Below, piece after piece: positions 2 to 7,735 of a stretch of DNA of 9,465 bases. Each line of letters starts with the position of its first letter. The stretch's first letter is position 1. The position numbers were made by a program, and so were the translations under genes. The notes under the pieces were generated by a model. The model was not told the origin of the DNA, made no database searches, and saw nothing but the letters and a program-made list of their open reading frames with translations. This DNA comes from Candidatus Omnitrophota bacterium (GTDB taxonomy: Bacteria; Omnitrophota; Koll11; VGKN01): the NCBI GenBank assembly GCA_016867055.1, contig VGKN01000037.1, positions 1 through 9,465 on the forward strand, in the 5' to 3' direction.

Positions 2-250
2 ATAGAGATTTTATATCATTTTTCCCTGGATTCTACTGGAGAGATGTTAACTCTAAAGACCCTACTTAAGGATAAAAAGGATCCTCATATTGAATCTTTA
101 GCAAATATGATTAAGGGTGCAGAATGGATTGAGAGAGAGATGTGGGAGATGCTCGGCATTAATTTTATAGGGCATCCGAATTTGAAGAGATTACTCTTAG
201 ACGAGGAACTACCAGAAGACTTCCATCCCTTAAGAAAGGAGAAAAAGTAG
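2..250 (+). CDS. NuoC/MbhK-like hydrogenase subunit, C-terminal part (5'-truncated)
   Basis: The reading frame is open from base 2 to the TAG at 248-250, so only the last 82 residues of a longer protein are visible; the first ATG at 44 is internal. The stretch ILYHFSLD, then ERE-WEMLGI-F-GHP-LKRLLL and a final DFHPLRKE matches the end of the 30-kDa complex I subunit family (NuoC, MbhK, EchD, and the N-terminal part of HycE). In group 4 hydrogenases this soluble subunit binds the large subunit on the cytoplasmic side and carries no cofactor. The large-subunit gene follows after a 90-base gap, as in Mbh and complex I operons, where NuoC precedes NuoD. The family call is confident. Whether it is a separate protein or the end of a larger fusion cannot be seen here. 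Confidence 0.88.
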   Translation: MEILYHFSLDSTGEMLTLKTLLKDKKDPHIESLANMIKGAEWIEREMWEMLGINFIGHPNLKRLLLDEELPEDFHPLRKEKK

Positions 251-253
251 TTA

Positions 254-334
254 TAGAGTTCATAGAGTTCACTAGAGTTGTTGAGTTTAAAACTCAAGCA
301 ACCCAAGCAACTCTATCAACGCAAGTAACACGAT
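254..334. repeat. Period-9 tandem repeat with inverted halves
   Basis: The gap between the NuoC-like and large-subunit genes is almost entirely nine 9-base units. They begin with TAGAGTTCA (254-262), an exact copy (263-271) and CTAGAGTTG (272-280). After the centre the units switch to the complementary sense (CAACCCAAG 299-307, CAACTCTAT 308-316, CAACGCAAG 317-325). TTGAGTTT (281-288) and AAACTCAA (290-297) form a perfect 8-base palindrome around one base, and TAGAGTTG (273-280) pairs with CAACTCTA (308-315). The RNA could fold into a long hairpin, but there is no T-run, so a terminator is not supported. Confidence 0.8.
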
Positions 335-340
335 AATAAT

Positions 341-1588: not shown

Positions 1589-3238
1589 ATGTGGCGTATA
1601 GATATTTTAAGTAGTTTTGTTGCGGTTTCTATAGGGATATTCGGGCTACTTACCATTGTATATTCACTGGGGTTTATGAAGAACAGGCCACAACTTTTTC
1701 AGTATTACATCTATGTAATTTTAACTATAGCAGCCTCTATAGGAACTATTTTTACTAATAATTTGCTGGTCCTTTTAGTATTATGGGGATTTTTGGGACT
1801 CACCCTTTATCTGTTAATAAATATGGGTGACAAAAATTCAAGCACAACGGCTAAGAAGACATTAATAATCGTAGGTGGTTCAGATTCTCTTATGCTATTA
1901 GGAATAGGAATTGTCTATTATCTTACCGGGACATTGGATATGGACAAAATTCAGTTGACTGTTGACAGCTCGCAGTTGACAGTAATAGCATTTTTATGTC
2001 TGGCTATTACTGCTTTTGCCAAGGCAGGGGCAATGCCGCTGCATACATGGATTCCTGATGTAGCAGAGAGTGCACCTATACCCGTTAGCGCACTCTTACC
2101 TGCCTCCCTTGATAAATTGCTCGGTATATATCTTTTATTTAGGATTTCTACTGAGTTGTTTGTTTTGACCACCTTTATTAACCAGTTCTTATTAATCATA
2201 GGTGCCATTACAATCTTGGCCGCAGTAATGATGGCGCTTATTCAGCATAATTATAAGAAACTTTTGGGTTATCATGCAGTATCCCAGGTGGGTTATATGG
2301 TTATGGGAATAGGAACAGGAAATCCAGTTGGAATAGCAGGGGGATTATTTCATATGCTGAATAATGCAATTTATAAATCAGATTTGTTTTTGATAGGTGG
2401 TGCGGTTGAGAGTAAAAGGCAAACCCTGGAACTTGATAAACTCGGTGGTTTATCAAAGGCTATGCCGGTTACATTTTTTTGTGCTCTTATAGCTAGTCTT
2501 TCTATATCAGGAGTTCCACCGTTTAACGGGTTTGTATCAAAGTGGATGATTTATCAAGGACTTATAAGTCAACTACACGCTACGAGTTACTCGTTACGCG
2601 TTACGAGTTTACTTTGTTTAATATCAGCCATGTTTGGCTCGGCACTGACCCTGGCAAGTTTCTTAAAATTACTTCACGCTACATTTTTAGGACAAAAGAG
2701 TTCTCGGTCAACTGCGAGCAGTCAACTGTCAGCTAAAATTGACGAGGTTAATTTTCTTATGCGGCTTCCTATGTTAATCCTGGCAATTATTTGCATTATA
2801 TTTGGAGTATTTGCAAGCCAGATACCGCTTAGATATTTTATTTTACCCTCAGTAAAGGAAACTGCTTTCCTGGGAATATGGACATCTAACTTAGCTACCC
2901 TTTTGATAATTGTCGGTATTGTAGTAGGACTTGTTATCCTCTGGTTGGGGGATCTAAAAAAGAACACACGCCAGGATAACAGTTATGTGGGTGGTGAAAT
3001 AATACCGCAGGAATTTAGACCTACAGGAACAGAGTTTTACAATACAGTGAAAGACTTAGCCGGGTTTAAACAAATATACCAGAAAGCCCAGGAAGGATAT
3101 TTTGATATATATGAACAGGCAAAGGGAATAGTTTTTAATTTCACTCGCTTACTTCAACATCTTCATAACGGGATTTTGCCCACATATCTGGTCTGGTGTC
3201 TTTTGGGAATGATAGTCTTATTTTTTATAATTTACTAA
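1589..3238 (+). CDS. NuoL/HyfB-like antiporter-family membrane subunit with C-terminal lateral-helix-type extension
   Basis: This 549-residue, strongly hydrophobic protein belongs to the proton-antiporter M family (NuoL/M/N, MrpA/D, HyfB). The TM7 block FAKAGAMPLHTWIPD (residues 144-158) has the key lysine K145, followed by PVSALLPASLDKLLGIY (165-181) with K175, LLGYHAVSQVGYMVMGIG (225-242), and the FHMLNNAIYKSDLF helix with H255 and K263. The TM5 position of the family glutamate (E137 in the MrpD-like protein encoded here) is glycine G67. After the core, residues 467-549 (VGGE...FYNTVKDL...LLQHLHNGILPTYLVW) resemble the amphipathic lateral-helix plus terminal TM region seen in NuoL/MbhI-type proteins. 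Three loops contain in-frame period-7 repeat DNA (residues about 122-133, 330-341 and 372-382). ATG follows the repeat gap without a strong Shine-Dalgarno. Likely role: membrane arm of the hydrogenase; whether it pumps is uncertain. Confidence 0.88.
   Translation: MWRIDILSSFVAVSIGIFGLLTIVYSLGFMKNRPQLFQYYIYVILTIAASIGTIFTNNLLVLLVLWGFLGLTLYLLINMGDKNSSTTAKKTLIIVGGSDSLMLLGIGIVYYLTGTLDMDKIQLTVDSSQLTVIAFLCLAITAFAKAGAMPLHTWIPDVAESAPIPVSALLPASLDKLLGIYLLFRISTELFVLTTFINQFLLIIGAITILAAVMMALIQHNYKKLLGYHAVSQVGYMVMGIGTGNPVGIAGGLFHMLNNAIYKSDLFLIGGAVESKRQTLELDKLGGLSKAMPVTFFCALIASLSISGVPPFNGFVSKWMIYQGLISQLHATSYSLRVTSLLCLISAMFGSALTLASFLKLLHATFLGQKSSRSTASSQLSAKIDEVNFLMRLPMLILAIICIIFGVFASQIPLRYFILPSVKETAFLGIWTSNLATLLIIVGIVVGLVILWLGDLKKNTRQDNSYVGGEIIPQEFRPTGTEFYNTVKDLAGFKQIYQKAQEGYFDIYEQAKGIVFNFTRLLQHLHNGILPTYLVWCLLGMIVLFFIIY
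1952..1986. repeat. Period-7 repeat (CAGTTGA family) inside the NuoL-like gene
   Basis: Five consecutive 7-base units, CAGTTGA, CTGTTGA, CAGCTCG, CAGTTGA and CAGTAAT, encode residues 122-133 (QLTVDSSQLTVI) in frame. They lie in the loop before the TM7 lysine helix. The same unit appears intergenically at 7704-7731 and inverted at 2704-2735. Confidence 0.78.
2577..2611. repeat. Period-7 repeat (GTTAC family) inside the NuoL-like gene
   Basis: Units ACGCTAC, GAGTTAC, TCGTTAC, GCGTTAC and GAGTTTA encode residues 330-341 (HATSYSLRVTSL) in frame, in a short loop between hydrophobic helices. This is the family found at the large-subunit stop (1528-1573). The stretch is visibly richer in CG dinucleotides than the flanking gene. 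Confidence 0.78.
2704..2735. repeat. Inverted copy of the CAGTTGA period-7 repeat inside the NuoL-like gene
   Basis: Read on the minus strand it gives CAGTTGA, CTGCTCG, CAGTTGA and CCGAG. It shares the 13-mer GCTCGCAGTTGAC exactly with the copy at 1952-1986. On the plus strand it encodes residues 372-382 (SRSTASSQLSA), a polar loop between hydrophobic segments. Confidence 0.75.
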
Positions 3239-3240
3239 AA

Positions 3241-3759
3241 ATGTTAGATCTAAATATACTTTTAGTTTTAATGATTATAGGGGCCATAATGGCGGTAGAA
3301 ATAAAAGACCTACTTTCTTCTGTTATTGCGGTTGGTGCGGTAGGCCTTGGGTTATCTGTGGCGTTTTTAATCCTTAAGGCGCCTGACTTAGCCATAACGC
3401 AGTTGGTGGTTGAAATTTTGTGCGTGATAATACTAATTCGTTCAACTATTAGAAAAGACTTGCCACTTGTAAGAGACGGCAGGTGGATGTTTAACACAGT
3501 AAGTACGCTTATTTTTATTTTATTGTTTTTAGCTATAGCCTTTTTTTCTCTAAAAGAAATTCCCTCATTCGGCAGTCCTATTATGAGGGTAGCAGCAAAT
3601 TATGTAAAAGATGGACTTTCTAAAACTGGAGCAGCCAATATAGTTGCAGCAGTTATATTGGATTTTCGTGGATATGATACCTTAGGAGAGGCAACCGTTT
3701 TGTTTACAGCGGTTATAGGAGTTTTGACTGTTATAAGAAAAAAAGGGAGAATTAAATAG
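3241..3759 (+). CDS. MrpA C-terminal-type subunit (DUF4040/MbhD plus MbhE-like domains)
   Basis: This 172-residue membrane protein corresponds to the C-terminal third of MrpA, encoded apart from the antiporter domain. The first half has three hydrophobic segments and the signature LKAPDLAITQLVVEIL (residues 45-60), typical of DUF4040/MbhD. The second half ends with AANIVAAVILDFRGYDTLGE (131-150) and a last helix, the MbhE-type signature. In Pyrococcus these are two genes (MbhD, MbhE); here they are one. It is expected to contribute to the ion path of the Mrp module. I chose ATG 3241, two bases after the upstream stop, because a GTG at 3196 would add 15 residues overlapping the previous gene and unlike the family. 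Its TAG stop (3757-3759) is the start of the period-8 repeat. Confidence 0.88.
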   Translation: MLDLNILLVLMIIGAIMAVEIKDLLSSVIAVGAVGLGLSVAFLILKAPDLAITQLVVEILCVIILIRSTIRKDLPLVRDGRWMFNTVSTLIFILLFLAIAFFSLKEIPSFGSPIMRVAANYVKDGLSKTGAANIVAAVILDFRGYDTLGEATVLFTAVIGVLTVIRKKGRIK

Positions 3760-3836
3760 GTGTTAAGGTGTTTAGGTATTAAGGTGTTTAAGTGTTGGAG
3801 GTATTAAGGTGTTTAGGTGCTGAGGTGTTAAGATAG
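3757..3836. repeat. Period-8 tandem repeat, left flank of the four-helix-bundle gene
   Basis: Nine units of an 8-base repeat (one of 9 bases) run AGGTGTTA, AGGTGTTT, AGGTATTA, AGGTGTTT, AAGTGTTGG, AGGTATTA, AGGTGTTT, AGGTGCTG, AGGTGTTA. They begin with the last two bases of the upstream stop codon and end 22 bases before the next ATG. The 14-mer TTTAGGTATTAAGG (3771-3784) recurs in reverse complement at 4219-4232. Confidence 0.85.
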
Positions 3837-3852
3837 ATGGGAGATTAAGAGA

Positions 3853-4215
3853 ATGTTTGAGAGAGCTAAAGATTTAAGGATATTAAACCAGGCAGAAAAA
3901 ATTGCAGATGATATCTGGGAAATCGTAATTAACTGGAGCTATTTTGCAAAAGACACTATTGGCAAGCAGTTAATTTGCGCTTCTGATTCTATTGGTGCTA
4001 ACATAACAGAAGGGTACTCTCGTTATCATTTAAAAGAAGGTCTGAATTTTTATTATTATGCTCGGGCATCTTTAGAAGAAACAGAATATTGGCTCCGCCG
4101 CGCTATTAACAGAAAATTAATTAAATCGCAAGATTATGAGAAATTCTTAGAAAGATTAGAAAATCTATTACCTCAATTGAATTCTTTTATATCTAAAAAG
4201 AGAATTTCGAAATGA
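3853..4215 (+). CDS. Four-helix-bundle protein of the S23 / 23S rRNA intervening-sequence family
   Basis: This 120-residue soluble protein has no membrane segments and reads as four amphipathic helices. The core SDSIGANITEGYSR (residues 44-57), followed by F--YARASLEETEYWLRRA (about 66-84), matches the pattern of the family (SIP-NIAEG, then AR-SA-E---L). It has about the usual family length. Relatives are encoded in 23S rRNA intervening sequences, and the fold is shared with the Avd accessory protein of diversity-generating retroelements. The biochemical role of the stand-alone form is unknown; nucleic-acid binding is a reasonable guess. It is alone among membrane-protein genes and splits the Mrp cluster. 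Its start has a clear purine-rich site (TGGGAGA at 3838-3844), better than those of most neighbours. Its TGA overlaps the downstream ATG (ATGA at 4212-4215), so it would be co-translated with MrpB. Confidence 0.88.
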   Translation: MFERAKDLRILNQAEKIADDIWEIVINWSYFAKDTIGKQLICASDSIGANITEGYSRYHLKEGLNFYYYARASLEETEYWLRRAINRKLIKSQDYEKFLERLENLLPQLNSFISKKRISK

Positions 4216-4691
4216 ATCCCTTAATACCTAAAAACCAGAATACCTTAAAACCTAATCCAGGTATGACATTAATAGTGAAGGTGGTTACACGGCTTACCGT
4301 TGGGTTAATTTTACTTTTTGGAATATATATAGTTTTACATGGTCATTTAAGCCCTGGCGGGGGTTTTGCAGGCGGGGTAATTATTGCACTTTCATTTATC
4401 CATCTTACGCTCGCCTTTGGCAAGGACTTTGCACTCAGGAAGCTCTCGGAATCTAAAGCCTCATTATTAGAAAGTCTCGGGGCTATTATGTTTTTAACCA
4501 TTGCAACACTAGGTTTCTTAGGTGGATATTTCTTCTACAATTTCTTCATTAGCAAAGGAAAACCATTTAATCTTTTTAGTGCGGGCATAATTCCCCTATG
4601 TAATATTGCCATATGCCTAAAGGTAGGCGCAGGGCTATTTGCTATATTTTTGGTTTTGATTTTGTTCAGGCTTCCGGAAAAGAAAGAATGA
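4212..4691 (+). CDS. mrpB: MrpB/MbhF-like Na+/H+ antiporter subunit with repeat-encoded N-terminus
   Basis: This small membrane protein of the Mrp module has about four TM helices. The family signature HGHLSPGGGFAGGVIIAL is at residues 43-60, and PLCNIAICLKVGAGLFAIF at 128-146. The frame from ATG 4212 gives 159 residues, overlapping the upstream stop by 4 bases. Residues 2-17 (NPLIPKNQNTLKPNPG) are encoded by the inverted period-8 repeat and are unlike family N-termini. M18 (ATG 4263, MTLIVKVVTRL) matches the usual family start and was probably the ancestral one, but it has no well-spaced Shine-Dalgarno site today, so 4212 is kept with the alternative noted. With MrpA-G it is expected to form the ion-translocating part of the hydrogenase. 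Confidence 0.92.
   Translation: MNPLIPKNQNTLKPNPGMTLIVKVVTRLTVGLILLFGIYIVLHGHLSPGGGFAGGVIIALSFIHLTLAFGKDFALRKLSESKASLLESLGAIMFLTIATLGFLGGYFFYNFFISKGKPFNLFSAGIIPLCNIAICLKVGAGLFAIFLVLILFRLPEKKE
4214..4261. repeat. Period-8 repeat, inverted right flank of the four-helix-bundle gene
   Basis: Six 8-base units, GAATCCCT, TAATACCT, AAAAACCA, GAATACCT, TAAAACCT and AATCCAGG, are the reverse-complement sense of the left-flank repeat. CCTTAATACCTAAA (4219-4232) is the exact reverse complement of 3771-3784. The array lies wholly inside the predicted MrpB frame, where 24 bases (three units) make one eight-residue peptide period. Confidence 0.8.
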
Positions 4692-7388: not shown

Positions 7389-7710
7389 GACAATAGGCAT
7401 TATATTTATAATAATTGGTCTCACATTTGATTTCTTTGGTTGTCTGGGTTTAATCAGGCTCCCAGATGTATACAACAGACTTCAGGCCTCTACAAAATGC
7501 GTTACCCTTGGTACATGCGGAATAATGTTTGGGGTATTCATAACCAAGGGGTTCTCTCCGATAGGTATAAAGGCATTGCTTTGTATTGTTTTTATTTTAC
7601 TAACCTCGCCTGTCTCTGCACATGCGCTTTCAAGGGGTGCGCATATTTCAGGGGTTAAACTCTGGAAGAAATCGGTTTGCGATAAACTGGAAGAAGATAA
7701 AAGCAGTTGA
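7381..7710 (+). CDS. mrpG: MrpG/MbhC-like antiporter subunit
   Basis: The protein is 109 residues from ATG 7381 and has three TM helices. Family signatures are GLIRLPDVYNRLQASTK (residues 23-39), GIKALLCIVFILLTSPVSAH (62-81) and ALSRGAH. A TTG at 7363 would add six residues, but ATG 7381 is preceded at proper distance by GAGGGTAGG (7365-7373), so I chose it. It overlaps MrpF by 8 bases. The last codons and the TGA stop (7708-7710) lie in the CAGTTGA repeat, so the C-terminus has been set by repeat sequence. In the Mrp module MrpG packs with MrpE and MrpF. Confidence 0.93.
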   Translation: MNETIGIIFIIIGLTFDFFGCLGLIRLPDVYNRLQASTKCVTLGTCGIMFGVFITKGFSPIGIKALLCIVFILLTSPVSAHALSRGAHISGVKLWKKSVCDKLEEDKSS

Positions 7711-7735
7711 CAGTTAACAGTTGACAGTTAACGGT
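7704..7735. repeat. Period-7 repeat (CAGTTGA family) at the MrpG stop
   Basis: CAGTTGA, CAGTTAA, CAGTTGA, CAGTTAA form two perfect 14-base copies (7704-7717 and 7718-7731), followed by CGGTAAA. The repeat supplies the MrpG stop codon and fills the gap before the ferredoxin-like gene. This is the cleanest copy of the family also seen inside the NuoL-like gene (1952-1986, and inverted at 2704-2735). Confidence 0.85.

Follow-up and report, generated by a model that had tools for sequence, protein, structure and literature searches.

The locus considered here raises the question of why a gene for an S23-type four-helix-bundle protein, set between arrays of short tandem repeats, interrupts a hydrogenase operon. 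The whole stretch of DNA that was analyzed (9,465 nucleotides, hereafter the window) is, according to profile matches, a segment of an operon in which membrane-bound hydrogenase genes are joined by Mrp-type antiporter genes, and its hydrogenase large subunit found its closest match in the species-genome collection in an Omnitrophota MAG locus (L001, 91%). The initial annotation, made from the window alone, had described an S23-type gene that splits the MrpA-C/MrpB junction, and profile searches confirmed both points: the S23 gene (3853-4215, plus strand, 120 aa; PF05635, E=6e-25; TIGR02436, E=6e-24) lies between an MbhD/MbhE-type subunit gene (3196-3759, plus strand; PF13244 and PF20501) and MnhB (4212-4691, plus strand; PF04039), and is the sole gene of the cassette. 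The left arm of the cassette (3757-3832, plus strand) contains about nine units of the 8-nt repeat AGGTGTTA (the repeat scan delimited the array at 3758-3832, with a period of 8 and 9.2 copies), the first of which supplies the stop codon of MbhDE. The right arm (4219-4254, minus strand), recognized by sequence comparison, carries the same repeat in the inverse sense and now codes for the first residues of MnhB, whose start codon overlaps the stop codon of the S23 gene. Between the arms there is a perfect 14-nt inverted match (positions 3771-3784 match 4219-4232 in reverse complement), a length that was reached in none of 1000 mononucleotide shuffles of both arms, the best of which gave 13. Thus, the arrays were as first described with respect to the left units, the opposite sense and the 14-base match, whereas the right array, being 35-38 nt long, holds four to five units rather than the six originally counted.

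Both the profile match and the predicted four-helix-bundle fold place the protein in the S23/TIGR02436 family. A single-chain AlphaFold2 model, built from a 54-sequence alignment (pLDDT 94), was most similar in our comparisons to Xcc0516 (2gsc; TM 0.89), with 2rld also matching, and resembled the chains of Avd, an RNA-binding protein, in 4dwl and 8ub7 (TM 0.71-0.79, with 0.79 for 4dwl). Xcc0516 consists of five four-helix bundles, as stated in the title of the paper describing it, and a resemblance of PF05635 to Avd is mentioned in PMC10053308.

The operon was then aligned with those of relatives. Seventy of 80 hydrogenase loci yielded both neighbor genes, and in all 70 the MbhDE-MnhB junction was empty, the aligned ends being at most 173 nt apart, which is too short for an S23 gene. 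The gene is therefore not conserved at this position in distant relatives, as the initial annotation had anticipated for an inserted gene. Only two S23 matches were found in the 80 loci, both in L029 and away from this junction. Short repeats without S23 occur at the same junction in two relatives, namely a hairpin-like repeat AACCTCGTAGGTT...AACCTACGAGGTT near position 6051 of L011 and a run of related repeats AAATTCGAATATCGAAATTCG near position 6104 of L048. The window's cassette itself was met at the MbhDE-MnhB junction in one contig retrieved by the genome search (G008:C30, L087/L156), where the S23 gene is 83% identical to that of the window and the neighbor genes 62-81%. For the two S23 genes, dN was 0.10 and dS 1.2 (NG86), values which indicate that the protein is maintained by purifying selection. 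In genome G008, the junction is empty on the L010 contig but filled on C30, and 17 of the 19 matches to the window's repeat unit in this genome are on C30; we thus consider this contig probably misbinned and rejected the idea of two operon copies in one genome.

Other S23 genes were sought in 50 genomes with the PF05635 profile, which found matches in 7 of 10 genomes of a first set and 25 of 40 of a second. One hundred genes were retained for flank analysis: the window's own, 23 of 25 first-set matches (two were below the cut-off) and 76 of 85 second-set matches over the cut-off (nine split pieces, long fusions and contig-end stubs were left out). The upstream flank was scored against the reverse-complemented downstream flank, with a threshold of 18, and six genes without flanks were dropped. 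Inverted flanks scoring at least 18 were present at 47 of 94 S23 genes (46 of 93 without the window, whose score was 21) versus 17 of 704 control ORFs, the other 47 genes being below the threshold, while for direct-sense flanks the figures were 5 of 94 and 17 of 704; when flanks were swapped between S23 genes, 1.9% of 8742 pairs reached the threshold. In a census of arm arrays, in which an array had to beat all 30 shuffles and 15 cyanobacterial plasmid copies were added (n=109), arrays stood on both sides of 38 genes, on one side of 55 and on neither side of 16, as compared with 1 and 28 of 200 control ORFs with arrays on both sides and on one side, respectively. The period was 7 (80 arms) or 8 (40 arms) in 120 of 131 arms, with a median of 4.4 units per arm. 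The first description had implied that other PF05635 genes carry the window's own 8-base units in inverted orientation; the inverted orientation was found at the 47 genes, but the repeat unit differs between copies and follows the S23 subfamily. Its suggestion that other copies would not lack such flanks fared better, as 93 of 109 genes are accompanied by an array on one side or both.

Among the 15 cyanobacterial copies, the inverted score was at least 18 in six; direct-sense arrays flank the gene in L201 and L202, as they do in L155, and no array was visible by eye in L194. The sites of these copies include cas10/cmr3, cas6/cas4 (twice), ribonucleotide reductase subunits and plasmid transfer genes, and all three copies in cas loci (L192, L198, L201) carry arrays. 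At the cas6-cas4 junction, two distant cyanobacteria (L198, L201) have S23 cassettes with different units, and since the two do not align among the matches listed, the place may have received two independent insertions. With regard to the surroundings, the left array starts at most 12 nt from the upstream stop codon in 35 of 59 cases with a co-directional upstream gene and a clear left array (a plain count with no control set). A preference of S23 genes for operons was considered and rejected, as 61 of 105 were co-directional with both neighbors versus 459 of 618 control ORFs from hydrogenase loci. In L164 (genome G023), an S23 gene (match at 1501-1818) lies amid a tRNA gene cluster at 991-2336, all on the same strand. 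Internal stops within the profile match occur in 8 of 100 S23 genes (e.g. L094, L106, L153), which are decaying copies. No rRNA was found in the 12 loci scanned with Rfam, insertion in rRNA being known here from the literature.

Evidence for movement came from two kinds of comparison. Firstly, the alignment of cassettes at unrelated sites (about 68-82%) spans both arms and the gene between them and goes no further. Such arm-to-arm alignments were found within one genome (L097/L102, L143/L153), between genomes (e.g. L100/L178, L105/L182) and between a Chitinispirillaceae MAG (L114) and Nostocales plasmids (L191 and L193). Arm similarity tracks protein similarity at unrelated sites in the sense orientation only (Mantel 0.156, 0 of 300 permutations; 16 of 115 genes were dropped owing to stops, shortness or lack of a flank), and among the 43 closest pairs the arms were similar in 60% in the sense versus 7% in the antisense comparison. 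A period set by the protein itself was rejected, because the agreement among similar S23 proteins vanished once pairs with similar arms had been removed; the period is hence inherited with the repeat unit. Secondly, occupied and empty versions of the same site were found in near-identical cyanobacterial plasmids. Site 1 is occupied in Scytonema and Trichormus (L190, L191) and empty in Aulosira and Tolypothrix (L290, L291), both of which were read, and in four more plasmids according to the match listing (~97%); here the 5-nt sequence GTAAT is duplicated across the upstream stop codon. At site 4, which is occupied in Nostoc ATCC 53789 (L296), the duplication is ATG, i.e. 3 nt, at a stop/start overlap, so that the two readable sites differ in the length of the target duplication. 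At sites 2, 3, 5, 6 and 7, S23 is present in one plasmid and absent from another, with divergence too high for exact ends, and the cas10-cmr3 junction, which is occupied in Picosynechococcus PCC 7003, has no S23 gene in PCC 7002.

These sites bear on two other explanations. Short arrays might arise by slippage in AT-rich gaps and flank S23 genes by accident, with foldback template switching matching the two sides, which would suit the quick change of the units and their differences among copies, as well as the abundance of heptamer repeats in some bacteria (PMC4692102). We hold such a chance origin to be very improbable, since the inverted flanks are far more frequent at S23 genes than at control ORFs, and since arrays and gene enter array-free sites together, as in the occupied/empty pairs at sites 1 and 4. 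Alternatively, S23 might serve as an accessory regulator that acts on the arrays as operators or sites of translational control, with the arrays spreading by slippage and recombination and the genes by ordinary horizontal transfer. The purifying selection on S23, the position of arrays next to stop and start codons and the translational regulation proposed for TAACTGA arrays (PMC4679880) would all agree with this, but arrays and gene were inserted exactly and together, and the homology of unrelated loci ends at the arms; we therefore find a regulator with its binding sites improbable. Empty junctions in relatives, homology confined to the arm-to-arm segment, and occupied and empty plasmid sites point instead to a mobile cassette that inserts in protein operons, and the minimal mobile cassette suggested at the outset is borne out to that extent. 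In our judgment, window positions 3757-4254 are probably one copy of such a cassette of about 0.5 kb, composed of an array of 7-8-nt units, the S23 gene and the inverse array. Comparison of the loci indicates that Omnitrophota, Elusimicrobia, other MAG lineages and Cyanobacteria harbor cassettes of this plan, with other units, at numerous unrelated junctions, and that the S23 cassette with short-tandem-repeat arms has moved many times. This claim of mobility is based on a comparison of sequences, taken in part from MAGs that are incomplete and of which some contigs may be misbinned. Weighing against it are the 47 S23 genes under the score threshold, the 16 genes with no clear array, the direct-sense arrays and the unequal duplications, as well as three points set out below, namely the parallel rise of arrays with other periods, the small number of solo arrays that match a cassette in the same genome, and the stable surroundings of heptamer repeats described in PMC4692102.

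Arrays were also found without the gene. At plasmid site 1, L292 has the left arm alone, and at site 2, L293 has both arms, in each case without S23. On the 6-kb contig L156, the window's unit recurs as gene-less palindromes where two pairs of genes meet (2172-2259 and 3614-3666) and as an in-frame array within MnhA (894-931). In the window, the repeat scan detected a palindromic array without a gene, built from another unit (AGAGTTCAT / CAAGCAACTC), at 249-329, exactly between the genes of the 30-kDa subunit and the large subunit, which is probably a related array-only element, and a perfect short array of the 7-nt unit CAGTTAA/CAGTTGA at 7704-7732, between MnhG-type and ferredoxin-like genes. 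Short tandem arrays are furthermore present inside the MnhA frame of the window at length-variable places (1952-1983 and 2581-2609), and around 1952, at roughly the same point of the protein alignment, the arrays of the window and of L156 differ in their units. Free arrays were surveyed in 1.56 Mb drawn from the 50 genomes after masking of S23 neighborhoods, and the density of 7-8-nt arrays was 0.6 per 100 kb in 18 genomes with no S23 match, 1.7 in 12 genomes with one or two, and 5.8 in 20 genomes with at least three (still about 5.8 without L275, which samples the same region as L046; L022 and L251 overlap slightly). The density thus rises with S23 number (rho 0.49, p 3e-4) and is about nine times higher in S23-rich than in S23-free genomes, and arrays with periods of 6, 9 and 10 (24 arrays) increase as well (rho 0.54). 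An inverted partner within 100 nt that beat every control window accompanied 18 of the 50 free arrays listed (17 of 49 distinct ones). Of 46 solo arrays, six could be matched (p<0.01) to a cassette in the same genome, and most could not.

The folding of these elements suggests a further explanation, in which the cassette serves RNA processing: the inverted arms would be retained because the transcript hairpin is cleaved, as rRNA intervening sequences are by RNase III, so that the S23 message is released and the neighboring mRNAs are parted from each other, and movement would be rare and incidental. In the predicted RNA, the arms of the window pair across the S23 gene (2 of 100 shuffles folded equally well), and the gene-less palindromes fold well too (z -5.8 and -2.0 for those of L156, -5.6 for window positions 240-340). 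There is also a known precedent, a 428-nt intervening sequence of 23S rRNA that bears an S23 ORF, is closed by a 28-bp terminal stem and is excised by RNase III (PMC4990558). However, the direct-sense arrays of L155, L201 and L202 would not pair, arrays occur inside coding frames (L156, 894-931), and tandem units with a period of 7-8 are not needed for a plain stem. We consequently regard RNA processing as the main role of the cassette as rather doubtful.

Returning to the mobile cassette, one may ask whether an enzyme acting in trans, such as a Y1/RAYT-type transposase or a reverse transcriptase, moves the element, with S23 being a passenger or helper. That Avd, the partner of a reverse transcriptase, has the S23 fold and that Y1_Tnp is present in 44 of 50 genomes would speak for it. 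On the other hand, in these incomplete MAGs a reverse transcriptase was detected in only 6 of 50 genomes and in 2 of the 20 with at least three S23 matches, and Y1_Tnp was not found in G040, G002 and G042, which have 10, 4 and 3 S23 genes, respectively. Neither enzyme correlated with S23 number (rho -0.09 for the reverse transcriptase and 0.13 for Y1_Tnp), and both were rejected as helpers. An enzyme supplied elsewhere, as proposed in the initial annotation, was therefore not supported in the 50 genomes as far as these two enzymes are concerned, and we deem a trans-acting enzyme of this type unlikely.

Heptamer tandem arrays are known under the name STRR. How the cassette relates to these and to other known elements can be summarized as follows. 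It resembles the 23S rRNA intervening sequences in its size (about 0.4-0.5 kb), its single S23 gene and its complementary ends, but in the window, which gave no Rfam match up to E 0.1, the cassette sits in a protein operon, outside a 23S rRNA gene, and its ends are tandem 7-8-nt arrays; cassettes of this kind, moreover, have gene-less forms and exact plasmid insertions. Earlier authors cited in PMC4990558 proposed transposition of intervening sequences, as well as a mobile element with an ORF that functions in its mobility, and in CPR bacteria several insertion sites in 16S and 23S rRNA have been described to contain S23 ORFs (PMC11270868). Like the cassette arms, the heptamer arrays of cyanobacteria, Xanthomonas and Beggiatoaceae have 7-nt units, few per array, lie near stop and start codons and in part form convergent pairs (PMC4692102, PMC4679880). 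In particular, 70 and 75 convergent pairs were counted in two Xanthomonas genomes and few in Nostoc PCC 7120, with four units preferred, generally no tie to IS elements and stable surroundings (PMC4692102). The portions of these two articles available to us give neither a link to S23 genes nor a mechanism of spread, no mechanism being evident in the account of TAACTGA arrays (PMC4679880); S23 is not mentioned in the corresponding parts of PMC4853749 either, and those of PMC4907049, PMC8700078 and PMC11637426 contain nothing on S23 and arrays together. Among the matches listed in the open-licence PMC literature, there was no report joining S23 genes with short arrays. REP/RAYT systems and MITEs likewise have short palindromic gene-less elements beside a gene-bearing form (PMC3733652), but in REP/RAYT a Y1 transposase gene is flanked by palindromes, an arrangement which the window does not contain, and Y1_Tnp was not found in some S23-rich genomes. 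The terminal inverted repeats of MITEs and insertion sequences have their counterpart in the inverted arrays (score of at least 18 at 47 of 94 genes), whereas the single-gene cassette of the window contains no transposase, and the duplications at two plasmid sites are 5 nt and 3 nt long. Diversity-generating retroelements pair a reverse transcriptase with Avd, but no reverse transcriptase gene adjoins the S23 gene of the window. Finally, 18 S23-family genes in cas loci have been listed among functions associated with CRISPR-Cas (PMC3936711); they are likewise placed between cas genes, though the three copies that we inspected carry arrays and the PCC 7002 junction has no S23.

As for the mechanism of the mobile cassette, we tentatively propose that S23 binds the units and delivers the folded element. 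Both arms would fold into one stem, either in RNA or in single-stranded DNA during replication, and the S23 protein, having the same fold as the five-subunit Xcc0516 and Avd, would bind the regularly spaced units, the median of 4.4 units per arm being near one unit per subunit. Bound S23 could protect or deliver the folded element, which ordinary host enzymes would insert with a short duplication, in many cases where the upstream gene has its stop codon. From one site of synthesis, S23 might spread gene-less arrays elsewhere as well. In its full form, the model assumes a non-catalytic ring of five S23 subunits that holds the folded arms, one 7-8-nt unit per subunit, while host enzymes cut and join; since the same protein would spread gene-less arrays in trans, a single system could conceivably comprise many bacterial heptamer and octamer repeats together with the intervening sequences of rRNA and the stray S23 genes found in cas and other operons, an extension to which we give a comparably guarded, less than even, chance.

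The initial finding is real, and its interpretation proves largely right. Set beside known elements, the cassette extends the S23 intervening sequences to protein operons and is tied to the bacterial heptamer arrays, and perhaps it is the general form of which the rRNA copies are one case. It connects three subjects for which the parts of the literature at hand offer no settled account: the origin of S23-bearing rRNA intervening sequences, what makes and spreads the short tandem arrays of bacteria, and the presence of S23 genes within cas operons and others. The finding also cautions against taking an S23 gene found within an operon for a functional partner of its neighbors, and the link between the S23 cassette and the long-known bacterial repeats makes the origin of both testable.
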